Positions 3,121 to 9,579 of a stretch of 64,000 nucleotides of DNA are shown one piece after another. Each line of letters starts with the position of its first letter. Within the stretch, counting starts at the first letter, position 1. The notes beneath the pieces are model-generated. The model was not told the origin of the DNA, did no database searches, and saw only the letters and a program-made list of their open reading frames with translations. The stretch comes from Patescibacteria group bacterium (GTDB lineage: Bacteria > Patescibacteriota > Microgenomatia > UBA8517): the NCBI GenBank assembly GCA_035549555.1, contig DASZQR010000010.1, positions 62,001-126,000 on the forward strand. Direction: 5' to 3'. Both the position numbers and the translations under genes were made by a program.

Positions 3121-4020
3121 ATGCCAGAGAAACTAGAAGATAAAGAAATTGTAAGGCCAGCAAATGTACTTATTGTCAATTTTAATGTTGATCAAACTCC
3201 GTATGTGAGCATTGCGGGAGGATTATTTGATACTCCTAGACAAAATGGTGAAACCTACACGGAATATAAAAAACGAATACTCGAAAATGCTTCTCTAAAA
3301 GTTATTGATTTAATAAAACACCCTGATGATAAAGATAAATCAGTTACCAAAGCCAATTTATTACTTCCTTTCGAAAGATTGAATAATTATCAGGCAGTTA
3401 TTATTACAGGAAGTCAGTTAATCGCTCGCCCAAGCGTCATCGATCACGAAAATCCCCAAACAAGAGAGATTAAGAAAGGAGTTCTTATAAAAGACTGGAG
3501 AAAGGAATTTTATCAATTTGTATATGCTATCCGCGATGCTCGTATTCCATTGCTTGGAATTTGCTTCGGTGCAGAAGGAATTGTCGAAGCTTTAGGTGGT
3601 CAACTTAAAGATTTAAAAACACAAAAGGGTAGTAATTTCTGGGAAATAGGTTGGAGTTATGTAAAACGCTATACAGGAAGCAGAGAAGATCCTGTCTTAA
3701 GAGGCTTGCCTGAAGAGTTTCTTGTGCCTCAAGATCACGAAATGACTATCACTAAATTACCTGAAGGCGGTGAAGTTCTGCTTGAAAACGAAAGAGGAGT
3801 TCAAGGATTTAAACTTGGAAAAATCTATGGATTCCAATTTCATCCAGAAAAAAGCAGGGAACAAATGATGAATTATTTAGACAAAGACGATGTTAGACAA
3901 AGATTGGAAAAGAAAAATAAAAAAATAGATGATATTAAAGCTTTAGGGGAAACATACAACGATGAAGCAAAAATAATTCTATCAAACTTTCTTCGTTTTG
4001 CATGGCAAAATGCTCAATAA
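3121..4020 (+). CDS. Class I glutamine amidotransferase-like protein
   Basis: GATase1 (triad glutaminase) domain: nucleophile Cys148 in the elbow LGICFGAEG, and His241 and Glu243 in FQFHPEKS. A GMPS-like QDHEM segment lies at about 204-208. It has an extra N-terminal part (1-80) and a charged C-terminal extension (about 250-299) not typical of a bare glutaminase. The ATG sits 4 nt after the previous stop with AGGAG overlapping that stop, so it is the last gene of the ligase operon. Inference: it supplies ammonia from glutamine for an amidation linked to the ATP-grasp products, or hydrolyses a gamma-glutamyl bond. It is not GuaA or CarA, because no synthetase domain or partner is near. Confidence 0.8.
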   Translation: MPEKLEDKEIVRPANVLIVNFNVDQTPYVSIAGGLFDTPRQNGETYTEYKKRILENASLKVIDLIKHPDDKDKSVTKANLLLPFERLNNYQAVIITGSQLIARPSVIDHENPQTREIKKGVLIKDWRKEFYQFVYAIRDARIPLLGICFGAEGIVEALGGQLKDLKTQKGSNFWEIGWSYVKRYTGSREDPVLRGLPEEFLVPQDHEMTITKLPEGGEVLLENERGVQGFKLGKIYGFQFHPEKSREQMMNYLDKDDVRQRLEKKNKKIDDIKALGETYNDEAKIILSNFLRFAWQNAQ

Positions 4021-4026
4021 CCATTA

Positions 4027-4058
4027 AAAATCCCTCAATTTCTTGAGGGATTTTCTAA
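4027..4058. terminator. Bidirectional intrinsic terminator
   Basis: Perfect 12-bp inverted repeat AAAATCCCTCAA / TTGAGGGATTTT (4027-4038 and 4043-4054) with a 4-nt loop. The outer A/T pairs give a T-run after the hairpin on both strands. It separates the convergent ligase operon (plus) and rplJL (minus). Confidence 0.85.
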
Positions 4059-4095
4059 GTTCTACCGCAGTCTTCTGCGCGCAGAATTAAAATTC

Positions 4096-4485
4096 TTATT
4101 TTAATTCTACAGTTGCTCCAGCTGCTTTTAATTTATCAGCTGCGCCTTTAGCATCTTCTGCTTTAGCGTCTTTAAGTACTTCTGCTGGAACTGTGTCAGT
4201 CATTGCTTTTGCTTCTTGTAATCCAAGGTTTGGATTAATTTCTCGAAGTGCTTTGATGACAGCTATTTTATTTGCTCCTGCATTTGTCATAACAACTGTT
4301 TGGCTTGCTCCTGCTGCGCTTGTCTCTGCATCTGCTGATGCGGCTCCTGCTGCTGGGGCTGCCATTGCCATAGGAGTAACTCCAAGTTTCTCCTGCAATG
4401 CTTTGTTTAGTTCTGAAAGTTCCAAAACTGTAAGTTCTGCAATTTCATCAACTATTTTTGTTACTTTGTTTTTTTCTTCTGCCAT
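4096..4485 (-). CDS. rplL: Ribosomal protein bL12 (L7/L12)
   Basis: Stalk protein that recruits translation GTPases. The N-terminal dimerisation helix carries the L10-binding segment (about 1-35). An Ala-rich hinge (about 40-65) follows, then a C-terminal domain with KIAVIKALRE and the EAKAMTDTVP segment. Length of 129 aa is normal. It follows rplJ after 5 nt in the same transcript and ends just before the shared terminator. Identification is secure. Confidence 0.97.
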   Translation of the reverse strand: MAEEKNKVTKIVDEIAELTVLELSELNKALQEKLGVTPMAMAAPAAGAASADAETSAAGASQTVVMTNAGANKIAVIKALREINPNLGLQEAKAMTDTVPAEVLKDAKAEDAKGAADKLKAAGATVELK

Positions 4486-4490
4486 TTAAA

Positions 4491-5006
4491 TCACCCCACC
4501 TTCGCTGTTAGTGTTCCGATTAATTCCTGAACACTCGCTTGCAAATTAGAAATAAGCATATACATTGGGCTTGCGATATTGCCAACAACTTGTCCTTTAA
4601 GAGCTTCTTTGCCTGGAAGTTTGGAAATTGCTTCCATTCCAGCTTTGTCCTGAAAAGCTCCATCTAAAATTCCAGCCTTAAATTTAAGAGCTTCATTATC
4701 TTTTGCAAAGTTTCCAATTGCTTGAATAGGGGAAACTGCATCTTCTTTTCCAAAAACTACTGCAGTTTGTCCGCTTAAAATTTCATCAGTTATTATATCT
4801 TCTGGAAGTTTTGCATCCTTTGCTGCAAGTTTAATTAAAGTATTTTTAGCAACAATCATGCGTGCTTTTGCCTCTTTAAGTTTTTTCTTGAGATCCTGCT
4901 GGGCAACAATATTCATGCCAGTGAAATCAACTAATGAAATAGAAGAAGCATCCTTGAAGTCTTTGGATAGCTCGTTTATTAATGTTGATTTATCTTGTTT
5001 TAACAT
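4491..5006 (-). CDS. rplJ: Ribosomal protein uL10
   Basis: Stalk base protein that anchors L12 dimers; 171 aa from the chosen start. The reading frame can be extended four codons to a GTG at 5018, but that lies inside the structured leader. The ATG at 5006, preceded by GAGG, is the better start. Visible family features: DFTGMNIVAQQDLKKKL and the Lys-rich RNA-binding part (about 30-60), then the C-terminal helix that holds L12. It has its own promoter and L10-type leader, so autoregulation is likely. Confidence 0.95.
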   Translation of the reverse strand: MLKQDKSTLINELSKDFKDASSISLVDFTGMNIVAQQDLKKKLKEAKARMIVAKNTLIKLAAKDAKLPEDIITDEILSGQTAVVFGKEDAVSPIQAIGNFAKDNEALKFKAGILDGAFQDKAGMEAISKLPGKEALKGQVVGNIASPMYMLISNLQASVQELIGTLTAKVG

Positions 5007-5058
5007 ATACCTCGACACGACTTAAATTGAACCATTCAACTGCGTGTTGTCTTTGGTA
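5007..5058 (-). ncRNA. L10 leader (autoregulatory 5' UTR of rplJ)
   Basis: On the minus strand TACC (5058-5055) pairs with GGTA (5011-5008), and ACACG (5047-5043) pairs with CGTGT (5019-5015). These enclose AAAGACA opposite CGA, a kink-turn-like internal loop as in known L10 leaders. An inner hairpin TTGAA/TTCAA is nested inside. The GGTA arm contains part of the Shine-Dalgarno GAGG, so folding or L10(L12)4 binding would hide it. The predicted +1 is the first base of the outer helix. Confidence 0.8.
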
Positions 5059-5064
5059 ATTGAT

Positions 5065-5092
5065 AGTATATCAGATTTTTAAAAAAGAACAA
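5065..5092 (-). promoter_or_regulatory. rplJL promoter
   Basis: Minus strand TTGTTC (5092-5087), 16 bp, TATACT (5070-5065). It puts +1 near 5058, exactly at the start of the L10 leader. It lies partly inside the 3' end of the upstream gene. Confidence 0.65.
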
Positions 5093-5951
5093 ATCTCTTT
5101 TTCTTTTTAGGTTTATCTGTTTCAACTTCAGATATTCTTGGCTCTAGTTCTTCTTTTCTACCCAATATTTCAAGAGAGTCATTGGCTAAATTAAGTCTAT
5201 TTGTAGCTTCATCCACAGATATATTAGCTTCATTTATTTGTGCTTGTTTTACTTTGGTCAATTTATCTAAGACAGTTTGTAAATCAATTGCCACATCAAA
5301 CTTTTGAGCAAGACTAAAATTTATAGGCAATCTACTATTTCTTAATTCCCAACTATTTTTAAAAACCAGCCCCATCTCATCTTCGGTCAATTGATCAAGA
5401 GTTCCAGGTTTTCCTTCGCCTAAATTGCCATTTATTTTGTCAAAATAATCGTTAAGTATTCTAAGATTATCTATGTCAAGAGATTTATTATTCTCGCTAG
5501 GTGTTGGAGCCAAAGCATAAATTTTATCTATGTCAGAATAAGCAGAATTTAAAGGAATTTCTATGGAAAATATTGTATCTTGAGCACTTTTAATTACTTT
5601 ATCAAAGCTGAAAGATAAATATCCAAAGCCCTGAGTTGTTGCGGCTAAATATCTAATATTTATATTTCCGTTTTCAACATTTATAAATGGAAAATTAATA
5701 ACTATTGCTGCGGCTGAGAGAGAATCATTGAATAAATACATTATTTTTTCATCTAAACCTCTATCTATTTCTTGAAATCCATAAATAATATGCCACATTT
5801 TTTGTCGCAGTAAATCTTTTTTTACTTCACTTTCATGTTGTAAACTAAGTCGATTTTGTTCTGCAGAAGTATTTTGCGCTAGAAAATTATTTATTTTTAA
5901 TAATTCGCCTTCATCATTAACCAATCTTCGTGAGTTTGGTTCTGGAGTCAT
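5079..5951 (-). CDS. Unknown protein between rplA and rplJ
   Basis: 290 aa, no family recognised. It is predicted soluble: no signal peptide or membrane segment, a mixed alpha/beta middle, a helical segment at about 225-265 rich in Asn/Ala/Glu, and a Lys-rich tail ending KKKKRFVLF. It starts 1 nt after the rplA stop region and so is co-transcribed with rplKA. The rplJ promoter overlaps its 3' end. A gene at this place in the L11-L10 cluster is unusual. A link to the ribosome is suggested only by position. Confidence 0.7.
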   Translation of the reverse strand: MTPEPNSRRLVNDEGELLKINNFLAQNTSAEQNRLSLQHESEVKKDLLRQKMWHIIYGFQEIDRGLDEKIMYLFNDSLSAAAIVINFPFINVENGNINIRYLAATTQGFGYLSFSFDKVIKSAQDTIFSIEIPLNSAYSDIDKIYALAPTPSENNKSLDIDNLRILNDYFDKINGNLGEGKPGTLDQLTEDEMGLVFKNSWELRNSRLPINFSLAQKFDVAIDLQTVLDKLTKVKQAQINEANISVDEATNRLNLANDSLEILGRKEELEPRISEVETDKPKKKKRFVLF

Positions 5952-5952
5952 C

Positions 5953-6642
5953 TTAAATCTGTACTTTCAAGCTTGGGCTCATTGTAGATTTCATGAATAC
6001 ACGGACAATTTGTTTGCGGTTTACCGCATCAAGTATCACATCAGCATTTTCTACTAATTCTTTTTCATTTTGTGATACTTTTCCAAAGCTTGTATGAATT
6101 AAAGGTGCTTCTTTTTCAGTCTTTATAGTTTTTGAATTTCCTGAGAAATTCTTTGCATCAGCTGTACTTTTTATTAAAGTTCCGTTTTTAGGATTTGGCA
6201 TCATTCCTTTTGGCCCTAAAATTCTTGCATATTTAACAAGTTTTGGCATCATGTCAGCTGTTGCAAGAAGCACATCAAAATCGACTTTTCCTGCATCAAG
6301 TTTTTTAAGAGTTGCATCATCTGCAACTTCAACCTTTTTCTCTTTTCCAGAAGAATGGGGGAGATTTGCATTCACATTAAGGCCAATTTTTTTGACAATC
6401 ATATGTAATTCAAGAGTTTGGTCAAATTTAGCTCCATCTTTGTTTTCCTTAAAGAATTTTATAGCTTCAGCTAGAGTGTAATTTTTATTGTGGTCAATTT
6501 TAGCTTTAGTTTCTTGATAATTTTTTCCGCGAACCTTTGCAACAATTTCGCGCTTTGTCTTTTTAGCTTCTGGAGCAGCTTGAGCTGCTTCCATTTCTTT
6601 TGCTTTTTCAGCTTTGCTTTTCATTATTTGTTTGTTTGCCAT
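5953..6642 (-). CDS. rplA: Ribosomal protein uL1
   Basis: Component of the L1 stalk. After a charged Ala/Lys-rich N-terminal extension (about 1-45) comes the L1 fold with the signature KYARILGPKGMMPNPK (about 137-152) and the end part TMSPSLKVQI. 229 aa. It follows rplK after 26 nt. In many bacteria L1 represses this operon by binding its mRNA. Confidence 0.96.
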   Translation of the reverse strand: MANKQIMKSKAEKAKEMEAAQAAPEAKKTKREIVAKVRGKNYQETKAKIDHNKNYTLAEAIKFFKENKDGAKFDQTLELHMIVKKIGLNVNANLPHSSGKEKKVEVADDATLKKLDAGKVDFDVLLATADMMPKLVKYARILGPKGMMPNPKNGTLIKSTADAKNFSGNSKTIKTEKEAPLIHTSFGKVSQNEKELVENADVILDAVNRKQIVRVFMKSTMSPSLKVQI

Positions 6643-6668
6643 AAATTCTTATTTAGTTATTTTTTGTT

Positions 6669-7097
6669 TTAAAGTTCAGTTTTAATTCCCATGCTTCTTG
6701 CAGTGCCTGCAACAATTTTTGTTGCTGCTGCAAGATCATCAGTATTTAAGTCTACTAGTTTGTCTTTTGCAATTTCTTCAGCCTGTTGTTTGGTGAGTGT
6801 TGCAACAATTTCTTTTCCTGGGTTATGTGATGCTTTTTCAATTCCAAGTTTTTTACGAATCATATCGCTTACTGGTGCCATTTTGATAATAAAATCAAAA
6901 GTGCGGTCTTCATAAATTGTAATAACTGCAGGAACTGTATTTCCTTTCATTGAAGCAGTTTTATCGTTGTATTGCTTCACAAAGTCCATAATAGAGACTC
7001 CGTGTTGTCCAAGCGCTGTTCCAACTGGTGGTGCAGGTGTTGCTGCTCCAGCTTGAAGATTAATTTTAACTACTGTCTTTATTTTCTTTCCTGCCAT
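6669..7097 (-). CDS. rplK: Ribosomal protein uL11
   Basis: Binds the GTPase-associated centre of 23S rRNA. The Pro-rich N-terminal domain with PAPPVGTALGQHGVSIMDF and the C-terminal RNA-binding domain ending GTARSMGI are clear. The frame is open to 7142, but the ATG at 7097 (MAGKKIK) gives the usual 142 aa. It lies 9-10 nt after AAAGG and downstream of a mapped-looking promoter, so the longer start is rejected. Confidence 0.96.
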   Translation of the reverse strand: MAGKKIKTVVKINLQAGAATPAPPVGTALGQHGVSIMDFVKQYNDKTASMKGNTVPAVITIYEDRTFDFIIKMAPVSDMIRKKLGIEKASHNPGKEIVATLTKQQAEEIAKDKLVDLNTDDLAAATKIVAGTARSMGIKTEL

Positions 7098-7135
7098 TTT
7101 GATTAGACCTTTCGTCTCCCACTTTTTTAAGGTGG
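7098..7135 (-). other. rplK 5' leader with two small hairpins
   Basis: From the predicted +1 (7135) the minus strand begins with CCAC..GTGG around an A-rich loop. A second hairpin AGAC-GAAAG-GTCT carries the AAAGG ribosome-binding site. This could be an L1- or L11-responsive leader, but I cannot match it to a known consensus. Confidence 0.4.
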
Positions 7136-7141
7136 TAAGCA

Positions 7142-7170
7142 ATTATATTAGAAAAAGACTATAATATCAA
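7142..7170 (-). promoter_or_regulatory. rplK operon promoter
   Basis: Minus strand TTGATA (7170-7165), 17 bp, TATAAT (7147-7142). It is back to back with the promoter region of the plus-strand gene at 7175, which has TATAAT at 7160-7165. Confidence 0.75.
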
Positions 7171-7174
7171 CCAT

Positions 7175-7438
7175 ATGAATGAAAACAGTGAAGTTTGTAC
7201 CAATCCTGATCTTCCAGACATTATTTTATGCCCATTTGATATGACTGGTGAATGTATAATGGCAAAATATATTGAAAATCAATGCATAAACGGATCAGCT
7301 GACGGAGAATGGACAAAAGCTGCTTGGGACAGACTTCAAACAGATCTTAATTTAAGAAATGCAGGAGTCTGTTTAGACTATGTATCTTATTTGAAAGCAC
7401 TTAAGAAAAGTGTTCCAAAATTTAAACAAACAGAATAA
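7175..7438 (+). CDS. Small cysteine-containing orphan protein
   Basis: 87 aa, not recognised. Cysteines occur at about 8, 19, 27, 37 and 66, the first four in the N-terminal half (PDLPDIILCPFDMTGEC), which hints at metal binding. The C-terminal half is helical and Lys-rich. TATAAT lies 9 nt before the ATG and no Shine-Dalgarno is seen. It sits, with the next gene, inside what is normally a continuous secE-nusG-rplK operon, on the opposite strand. Confidence 0.6.
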   Translation: MNENSEVCTNPDLPDIILCPFDMTGECIMAKYIENQCINGSADGEWTKAAWDRLQTDLNLRNAGVCLDYVSYLKALKKSVPKFKQTE

Positions 7439-7492
7439 TTTTATAAAAAATCTCAGCTTGCAAATAAAATAGTTTGAATATAGTATTAGTTC

Positions 7493-8068
7493 ATGGCTGA
7501 CCAGAAAGATCTAGATATTAATCTAGAAATGGGACCAGGAGTCACACCGTTACTTGGAACATTGCGACAGGACCTGCGAGGTAAAGGCCCCGGAGTATTA
7601 GTAGATAGAAGCCGCGAAGCATTGGAAAATATTAACCCGGAAGATTTCGAAATAATGAGGTTAAATGAATATTCTGGAATCCTTAGAGTTCAAGGTAATG
7701 CGAGAAACATACCTACTCCGGACAATTCATGCTCAAGTATTTTAGCAGTAAACGTCATGGGACATATTAAAAAAAGGTTCGCTGGCGCTTCGGACCATCC
7801 TCAGATAGACGAAATAGGCAAAAGTTTTTATGAGAAAGCAAAATCAGGAGGAAATGTAATAATCGTAGAAACTTATACACCAGACGTATCACCAAAAATA
7901 AAAGTTATAGATGAATTCAAAAAATTAGGATTTGAATTAAGTGAAGAATACGAAAACGGAGAAATAAAACATATTTTTAAAGAAGAATCTCAAAAACATC
8001 CTTTTGTTAAGGCTACTCTGGCTGGAACAACAACAGGAAAATACGCACTGGTTTTTAAAAAGCCTTAG
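7493..8068 (+). CDS. Unknown protein, possibly methyltransferase-like fold
   Basis: 191 aa. The pattern SSILAVNVMGHI (about 82-93), then GGNVIIVETYTPD (about 119-131), and a final strand ALVFKKP resembles the second half of a Rossmann SAM-methyltransferase. However, no glycine-rich SAM motif I (GxGxG) is visible upstream. It is therefore either a degenerate member or something else. TATAGT stands 8 nt before the ATG. Convergent with nusG, 10 nt apart. Confidence 0.55.
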   Translation: MADQKDLDINLEMGPGVTPLLGTLRQDLRGKGPGVLVDRSREALENINPEDFEIMRLNEYSGILRVQGNARNIPTPDNSCSSILAVNVMGHIKKRFAGASDHPQIDEIGKSFYEKAKSGGNVIIVETYTPDVSPKIKVIDEFKKLGFELSEEYENGEIKHIFKEESQKHPFVKATLAGTTTGKYALVFKKP

Positions 8069-8078
8069 CTTTAATATT

Positions 8079-8699
8079 TTATACTTTCACAACCTGAAGA
8101 AAATCTAGTTCAACTGGAGTTTCTCTTCCAAAAATAGAAACCAAAACTTTGACGCGTCCTTTATCCTCATCAACTTCATTAACTGTTCCCAAAAATCCTG
8201 TAAAAGGTCCATCTGTAATTTTTACAGCATCGCTAATTGCAAGTTTTGTTTTAAATCTTGGAGCTGGACTACTGACGAATTTTTGAATGTTTGCAACTTC
8301 TGTAGCTGAAATTGGTGTTGGTTTATTATCCACTCCAACGAATCCTGTAATTCCAGGAGTTGTACGAATAGCAAGCCATACTTCATCATCTAAAATCATT
8401 TTTACAAGAAGATATCCAGGAAAAATTTTTTCTTTGACAGTTGCCTTTTTTCCGCCTCGTACAACAACTTTGTCTTGAGTTGGGACAAGAAGTTCAAAAA
8501 CTTTTCCGTTTAATCCCAAAGTTGTAACTCTTTGTCTCAAAGTCTCAGAGACTCGTGCTTCATGTCCTGATTGTGTGTGAACCACATACCATTTGGCATT
8601 TTCGTTATCTGTTTGTTCAATAACAATATGTCCAGGAATTTTCTTTGCACCAACGCCGCGTTCATCAACGCCTGCATTTGTATTTTGTGTATTATCCAT
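8079..8699 (-). CDS. nusG: Transcription termination/antitermination protein NusG
   Basis: 206 aa. An N-terminal extension of about 35 residues precedes the NGN domain, which starts KWYVVHTQSGHE. The segment EKIFPGYLLVKM is typical, as is the KOW domain DGPFTGFLGTVNEVD near 160 ending in FLQVVKV. It binds RNA polymerase and links it to ribosomes. It is the second gene of the secE-nusG transcript (41 nt gap). Confidence 0.96.
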   Translation of the reverse strand: MDNTQNTNAGVDERGVGAKKIPGHIVIEQTDNENAKWYVVHTQSGHEARVSETLRQRVTTLGLNGKVFELLVPTQDKVVVRGGKKATVKEKIFPGYLLVKMILDDEVWLAIRTTPGITGFVGVDNKPTPISATEVANIQKFVSSPAPRFKTKLAISDAVKITDGPFTGFLGTVNEVDEDKGRVKVLVSIFGRETPVELDFLQVVKV

Positions 8700-8740
8700 A
8701 AAATTTATTTGTTTATAATGTAATCATCACAAGCAAATTC

Positions 8741-8926
8741 TTATTTGCTTAATATTAATCCAATTAATTTTGTAAATCCTGCATCAAGTCCGCTTAAGTA
8801 TAATCCCACAATAATTGATATTAAGACAACAAGTAAAGTTAATCTAACAACATCACTTATTTTGGGCCAGGTAACTAAACCTAATTCGCTTTTTACTTCA
8901 AGCAAGTACTTAATTGGGTTAATCAC
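8741..8926 (-). CDS. secE: Preprotein translocase subunit SecE
   Basis: Single-span SecE (about 61 aa): an amphipathic helix with KSELGLVTWP, then one membrane segment (about 28-50). The frame opens at a TTG (8932), but that codon overlaps the -10 box. The GTG at 8926 is exactly where transcription should start, so a leaderless GTG start is chosen. No Shine-Dalgarno is present. Confidence 0.9.
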   Translation of the reverse strand: MINPIKYLLEVKSELGLVTWPKISDVVRLTLLVVLISIIVGLYLSGLDAGFTKLIGLILSK

Positions 8927-8931
8927 AAGCA

Positions 8932-8960
8932 ATTATATCAAATGTGCTAATATTTTTCAA
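8932..8960 (-). promoter_or_regulatory. secE-nusG promoter (leaderless)
   Basis: Minus strand TTGAAA (8960-8955), 17 bp, TATAAT (8937-8932), then 5 nt to the GTG start. This is one of the two best promoter matches in the window. Confidence 0.85.
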
Positions 8961-8961
8961 A

Positions 8962-9579
8962 ATGCCAGATTTCTCATACGAAAATAAGCTTTGGAAAAAG
9001 GGAATTAATGTTATTGCAGGCCTTGATGAAGTTGGTCGCGGTAGTCTAGCTGGTCCGGTTGTAACTGCTTTTGTAAGTTTCAATAAAAATACAAAAATGA
9101 ATATTTTAATTAATGATAGTAAAAAAATGTCTGCAAAAAATAGAGAATTAGCCAATAATTGGATAAAACGAAATGCCATAAATTATGGTATAGGAAAGGC
9201 AAGTGTTGCTGAAATTAATAGACACGGTATTGTAAAAGCAACTAACATGGCTTTTCGCCGTGCTTTAAAAAATTCTCATACAAAAGTTGACTACCTATTA
9301 ATAGATGCATTTTATATCCCAAACATTCGTGGATTAAGGCGCACTAAACAACTTCCGATAATAAAAGGCGATAGTAAATCGTATTCAATTGCCGCAGCTT
9401 CAATTATTGCCAAAGTTTATCGTGATGAACTGATGACAAAACTATCTCAAAATAAAAAATATAGTAGTTATTGTTGGCATAAAAATAAAGGCTACGGAAC
9501 TAAAGAACATAGAGATGCGATTGCAAAATATGGCTTAACTAATTATCATCGCAAACTATTTACTAGAAAAATAGTATAA
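8962..9579 (+). CDS. rnhB: Ribonuclease HII
   Basis: Removes RNA from RNA/DNA hybrids. The motif AGLDEVGRGSLAGP carries the Asp-Glu pair (about D22/E23). A further acidic site is LLIDAFYIP (about D115), and SIAAASIIAKVYRDELM is the family's helix. The frame opens at a GTG at 8944; ATG 8962 (MPDFSYENKLW) fits the family length (205 aa) and is preferred. It is divergent from secE, with overlapping promoter regions. Confidence 0.95.
   Translation: MPDFSYENKLWKKGINVIAGLDEVGRGSLAGPVVTAFVSFNKNTKMNILINDSKKMSAKNRELANNWIKRNAINYGIGKASVAEINRHGIVKATNMAFRRALKNSHTKVDYLLIDAFYIPNIRGLRRTKQLPIIKGDSKSYSIAAASIIAKVYRDELMTKLSQNKKYSSYCWHKNKGYGTKEHRDAIAKYGLTNYHRKLFTRKIV

Follow-up and report, generated by a model that had tools for sequence, protein, structure and literature searches.

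A terminator-less L10 leader that overlaps the putative ribosome-binding site of rplJ in a member of the Patescibacteria

Autoregulation by ribosomal protein L10 has been known since 1982 (PMC10931766). L10(L12)4 is reported to bind a target made up of a kink-turn and a UAA, which it stabilises, and the UAA is reported to be critical for L10 binding in G. stearothermophilus (PMC4538822). The rplJL leader of B. subtilis, as described in the same source, is 213 nt long and contains an anti-antiterminator, an antiterminator and a terminator (Yakhnin 2015, PMC4538822). For E. coli rplJL, the review places the L10 site at a distance from the ribosome-binding site, reports that direct competition was considered unlikely for this reason, and treats the mechanism as unresolved (Johnsen 1982, reviewed in PMC10931766). 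Our search of the open literature found no paper joining L10 leaders with the phyla considered here, and a term search of a ribosomal leader survey (PMC7247131) returned neither L10 nor CPR terms.

The 64,000 nt stretch of DNA analysed here (the window) contains a leader that can be set beside both systems. As in the B. subtilis attenuator and the Rfam family RF00557, an L10-type target consisting of a kink-turn and a UAA lies upstream of rplJL. Unlike the B. subtilis leader, that of the window is only 52 nt long, lacks a terminator and has its site overlapping the ribosome-binding site; the mutually exclusive antiterminator and terminator are absent, with a gap of 3 nt to the ATG. With E. coli rplJL, as the review describes it, the window leader shares a kink-turn target and proposed control at translation initiation, but the E. 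coli site is distant from the ribosome-binding site, whereas CGAGG in the window ends 3 nt before the ATG. This layout is unlike both the E. coli and the B. subtilis systems. The parts of the locus, with the evidence for each, are as follows.

5065..5070, minus strand: predicted -10 box TATACT (sequence and family promoter count)
5007..5058, minus strand: L10 leader, the entire predicted 5' UTR, about 52 nt (sub-threshold RF00557 alignment, model R1, covariation)
5055..5058, minus strand: outer helix P1, 5' arm UACC (MFE fold, pair counts in alignment)
5048..5054, minus strand: kink-turn strand AAAGACA (conserved AAGA-A motif; kink-turn role as described in PMC4538822)
5043..5047, minus strand: covarying stem (helix 2), 5' arm ACACG (96.9% of cells paired)
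5022..5024, minus strand: unpaired UAA (present in 33/43 motif-anchored leaders)
5015..5019, minus strand: covarying stem, 3' arm CGUGU (alignment pair counts)
5010..5014, minus strand: CGAGG, kink-turn 3' strand and putative GAGG Shine-Dalgarno (GAGG in 10/10 family RBS-overlapping leaders)
5008..5011, minus strand: outer helix P1, 3' arm GGUA, within the ribosome-binding site (fold, pair counts)
4491..5006, minus strand: rplJ, ribosomal protein L10, 171 aa (Pfam PF00466, 80.3 bits; NCBIfam NF000955, 139.9 bits)
4096..4485, minus strand: rplL, ribosomal protein L7/L12, 129 aa (Pfam PF00542, PF16320)
4026..4055, minus strand: terminator after rplL (the sole minus-strand terminator-like site found in 3900-9000)

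The order of elements in the UTR is UACC-AAAGACA-ACACG-C-(loop)-UAA-G-U-CGUGU-CGAGG-UAU-AUG. The rplJ start codon is the ATG at 5006-5004; a GTG at 5018 was rejected as the start, since L10 homologues align from the ATG. The -10 box at 5070-5065 puts the predicted +1 at about 5058, and the -35 is weak by eye. The initial annotation had proposed that the whole 52 nt 5' UTR is an L10-binding structure beginning at the predicted +1, and had noted the lack of a Bacillus-like terminator. The presence of an L10 leader at this place is confirmed; so is the second proposal, in that we looked for a terminator between the leader and the rplJ ATG and found none. Nor was a terminator found between the upstream genes and rplJ, so the rplJ message may also arise by read-through from those genes. 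Between rplA and rplJ lies a 290-aa reading frame (5079-5951, minus strand) without a Pfam or NCBIfam match, the end of which overlaps the rplJ promoter region. In the related genome G239, what precedes the rplJ promoter looks, by eye, like the end of rplA instead, so the 290-aa frame may be an insertion.

An L10 leader is present upstream of rplJ on the minus strand of the window. RF00557 aligns over it with 24.8 bits (E 0.032 in a 301-base search) against a gathering score of 44, and a scan of the whole window at the gathering threshold missed it. The alignment sets the kink-turn and CGAGG in register with the Rfam L10 model, and two traits of RF00557, namely conserved strands of the kink-turn and a stem with covariation, are found in the leader ahead of rplJ. 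The 3' hairpin and U-run of the RF00557 consensus are absent, the last hairpin of the model landing inside the rplJ reading frame, and in its present form the RF00557 model does not include this leader. An Rfam match at C1:150519 in genome G007 was set aside as a chance match to the end of an unrelated reading frame; by eye, this frame resembles a small heat-shock gene. In the MFE fold of the window leader a stem is closed and UACC is paired with GGUA; we nevertheless rejected the single-sequence fold as evidence (-12 kcal/mol, z -1.24, with 26 of 200 shuffles folding as well).

The evidence beyond chance is comparative, and consists of conserved motifs and a covarying stem in relatives. We collected rplJ upstream regions from 46 genomes of the window's family (50 were searched) and 14 other genomes of the order or class, and aligned 43 of these 60 regions by anchoring on sequence motifs alone (C[CT]nAAGA and CGAGG). 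In the 43 regions, a six-pair stem has 247 of 258 cells in standard pairs, whereas 1000 shuffles of the 3' arms averaged 188 and never exceeded 201; the rows of A1 were chosen by a score that includes pairing, so this motif-only count is the fairer one. A MAFFT alignment of the 43 rows has changes on both sides in eight of ten named pairs. The inner stem is paired in 96.9% of cells, with every slid control below 48%, and compensatory changes, the lack of which among relatives would have refuted the initial annotation, are plentiful there. RNAalifold, run on the same rows, predicted the five-pair stem alone and not the outer helix. A covariance model (R1) built from the 43 aligned rows matches 162 of 281 class genomes, with a single match in each, although it misses some leaders visible by eye, such as that of G012, which has a long loop; R1 scores 48.1 bits at 5058-5008 in the window, which is itself one of its 43 rows. 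In 39 of 41 family leaders, a hexamer resembling TATAAT precedes the leader by 4-14 nt; three control windows placed further upstream contain one in 8, 5 and 3 of 41 cases. This indicates that a leader start at about +1 is a family trait.

We compared the leader by eye with the L10 region of the organism's own 23S rRNA, ...CCAUAGACAGCCAG...GUAACAGCUCACUGGUCAAUGG..., which resembles AAAGACAACACG...UAAGUCGUGUCGAGG in the leader. In this comparison the 23S region appears to share AGACAG, GUAA and, at the matching position, a stem closing on CUGGU, and it has CAA where the leader has CGA; an L10 site would be expected to mimic the rRNA. R1 gave no match against the pieces of the 23S rRNA.

Masking of the Shine-Dalgarno sequence by the outer helix, also part of the initial annotation, holds up in part: the GGUA arm does lie inside the ribosome-binding site, but the helix has 2-4 pairs and is weaker than had been stated. 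It is paired in 75% of cells across the 43 rows, owing to two C-G pairs, which are the only near-invariant ones; the two that follow are present in 28 and 15 rows. Masking would need protein binding and not RNA folding alone. Outer-helix pair 2 is formed in all 10 RBS-overlapping leaders of the family versus 17 of 31 long-spacer leaders (Fisher p 0.009, uncorrected for shared ancestry), whereas outside the family the trend is reversed (9/16 versus 57/77, p 0.22), and we do not claim a longer outer helix as specific to the RBS-overlapping layout.

Leaders in the window's family (f1) come in two forms. In the long form, found in 31 of the 46 family genomes, an in-frame rplJ ATG lies 33-217 nt after CGAGG, and for 30 of these 31 leaders our script detected an intrinsic terminator within the spacer; the remaining one has, by eye, a hairpin with few G-C pairs followed by a T-run. 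Complementarity links the 5' half of the terminator to the CGAGG arm (30 leaders score 15.9 on average; shuffles average 10.6 and reach 11.8 at most), and in L091 an altered arm, CUGAGG, is matched by a change in the terminator to CCUCAG. This complementarity follows the antiterminator logic shown in B. subtilis (PMC4538822). In the short form, found in 10 of the 46 genomes including the window, 3-6 nt separate CGAGG, or a variant of it, from the ATG; this leaves no space for a terminator, and none is present. The C of CGAGG is altered in three of these ten, and all ten keep the AAGA/UAGA strand, the UAA/CAA and at least four of the five stem pairs. Terminator-type leaders of the family (G006, G016 and G007) have the same kink-turn, stem, UAA and promoter spacing as the window leader, but carry a spacer and an intrinsic terminator, both of which are missing from the window. 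Five genomes (G008, G228, G014, G015 and G238) were left out of these counts of 41 family leaders. In G015 the leader is about 280 nt upstream of rplJ. In the leaders of G008 and G228 (L002 and L073), the 3' kink-turn strand reads UGGAGG and the ATG is some 50 nt away; inspection by eye revealed no terminator before it. These two constitute a third, unexplained layout.

R1 has 139 matches in the class outside the family, of which we examined 95, mostly better-scoring (80 fetched and 15 from returned loci); two were dropped (clipped flanks; no detectable L10), leaving 93, with G025 also among the 60 regions described above. The spacing between CGAGG and the start codon, which depends on the start codon chosen by the script, is bimodal in these 93 leaders: 3-6 nt in 16, and at least 32 nt in 77. 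In three of the 77, an in-frame ATG is already present at 22-24 nt. Two of the 14 non-family genomes have the ATG at 5 nt (G031) and 7 nt (G036); neither is among the 93. A terminator was found in the spacer of 71 of the 77 long-spacer leaders, as compared to 34 of 1540 shuffled spacers. The six long spacers in which the script found none (L148, L158, L231, L234, L236 and L245) are all from family f11, and possibly reflect another mode of control. The 16 short-form leaders belong by family label to f12 (11 leaders), f16 (2), f111, f10 and f5, such that the short layout occurs in six families when f1 is counted. Families f1, f5 and f10 each hold both forms, the long-spacer ones with terminators. 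GAGG is kept in 15 of the 16, the exception being G347, with CGAAG in place of CGAGG.

A wider scan of 84,980 species used one exact pattern that fails on the window itself, and hence undercounts. It returned 68 matches, 63 with L10 downstream and five without. The adjacent ATG is the L10 start in nine of the 63; eight of these bear candidate-phyla names, and the ninth has a leader identical to that of the f12 genome G333. In the other 54, whose record titles mostly name Clostridia or relatives, the L10 start lies further along; among them, two from Bacilli (L280 and L317) have the adjacent ATG in frame with L10, followed by a better-placed ATG with a GGAG motif. At many of the Clostridia loci in L258-L325, the L10 motif is followed after 3-5 nt by the ATG of a usually short frame, with L10 itself starting about 80-220 nt downstream; these frames could be leader peptides, or could be due to chance, the pattern having selected for an ATG. 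A search of a genome-contig collection with the L10 protein found no relative.

The window as a whole likely has widespread leaderless transcription. A -10-like hexamer lies 3-12 nt before the ATG of 28 of its 76 ORFs, as compared to 12 of 76 at 13-22 nt and 6 of 76 at 33-42 nt, which gives statistical support to an earlier description of the region as one of leaderless genes; an SD-like motif is found near the start of just 13 of the 76 ORFs. Another short leader, of about 40 nt, lies behind a TATAAT box upstream of rplK (L11; 7097-7146, minus strand), with CCAC...GUGG and GAC-GAAAG-GUC hairpins just before the ATG, by eye. Our guess is that it might be an L1-responsive leader; too few relatives were available for a comparison upstream of rplK.

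We are fairly confident that the rplJ leader is a terminator-less L10 autoregulatory leader reduced to the L10(L12)4 site, in which CGAGG would double as the Shine-Dalgarno sequence and L10 would directly occlude the ribosome-binding site. L10 binding, the role of GAGG, repression and the translational level of control are all things we infer. We propose that L10(L12)4 in excess over 23S rRNA would bind the rRNA-like kink-turn in the leader, clamping GAGG(UA) in the structure and covering the AUG region, and that this clamp would block entry of the 30S subunit to rplJ and hence to rplJ-rplL. With L10 drawn off into ribosomes, the outer helix, being short, would open and translation could start. 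The organism's own 16S rRNA ends in GGATCACCTCC, carrying the anti-SD CACCTCC, so GAGG(U) can pair with it. Nonetheless, the scarcity of SD motifs in the window, together with the CGAAG of G347, suggests that GAGG may matter mainly as the L10 target; even then, an L10 molecule sitting 3 nt away from the AUG would still prevent initiation. On this sequence-based reading, control in the window would be purely translational, as the initial annotation had supposed.

An alternative is that the structure is a non-regulatory relic, decaying after loss of the terminator and kept partly because GAGG serves as a Shine-Dalgarno sequence. The altered C of CGAGG in three of the ten family members with this layout fits such decay, as does G238, which is nested among RBS-overlapping genomes and would have lost its leader altogether. 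In G238 (L088), the -10 is followed by 5 nt and then the rplJ ATG, there is no R1 match in the genome (85% complete), and the sequence is similar to that of its neighbour G239 up to the -10, all of which points to loss of the entire L10 leader and a leaderless rplJ. We nevertheless think a relic unlikely: the kink-turn strand, the UAA/CAA and at least four of the five stem pairs persist in all ten, a bare Shine-Dalgarno sequence would need none of these, and the layout is found in six families. Another possibility is that L10 bound at the extreme 5' end alters RNA decay or Rho-dependent transcription termination rather than 30S entry. The structure does begin at about the 5' end, and the sequence is compatible with such an effect, but the tight spacing to the AUG (10 leaders of the family and 16 of the class have 3-6 nt, and two more have 5 and 7 nt) points to ribosome access, and we consider an effect on decay or termination very unlikely. 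Lastly, transcription attenuation of the Bacillus type, in which L10 binding would favour an intrinsic terminator before rplJ, has the layout of 31 of the 46 family members behind it, 30 with a script-found terminator complementary to the CGAGG arm, but is barely credible for the window itself, where 3 nt separate CGAGG from the ATG and the sole minus-strand terminator-like site in 3900-9000 follows rplL.

Our preferred reading, direct occlusion of the ribosome-binding site, leaves the question of how the two forms are related. In the best tree built from L10 and TopA for 48 taxa (several on L10 alone), RBS-overlapping genomes fall in four places: one clade of seven (support 100) plus G238, and three single tips, namely the window, G022 and G002. 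Support along the backbone is 30-70, and the order-level relative G029 falls inside the family. An AU test of a single short-form clade gave p 0.053 with a full constrained search, and p 0.17 on the 42 taxa with TopA data (fast searches for both trees); an apparent rejection at p 0.0019 was withdrawn, as the constrained tree came from a fast, poor search. Hence, a single origin of the short form inside the window's family is not rejected. Across the class, both forms are present in f1, f5 and f10; provided that these families are clades, each requires one or more switches within it, and the layout must have changed repeatedly. By analogy with Bacillus, and from its majority, the terminator form would have come first.

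We lean slightly towards a broader proposal, that there is a third mode of L10 autoregulation, in which the target is the Shine-Dalgarno sequence and the ribosome-binding site is directly occluded, and that this mode has repeatedly been swapped with terminator attenuation within a single class of ultra-small bacteria (including Woese-, Ames- and Beckwithbacteria), with the same RNA kept throughout and the leader deleted in at least one lineage. Standard Rfam searching misses the RBS-overlapping layout in all cases tried: at the Rfam threshold, none of 20 such loci was found, versus six of 20 long-spacer loci. With the L10 target adjoining the AUG in a natural leader, direct competition becomes a mechanism that can be tested. 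Of the two recurring states, the one with a terminator is carried by most family members, and two interchangeable layouts around one conserved protein target provide a clean example of how regulation is rewired in minimal genomes.
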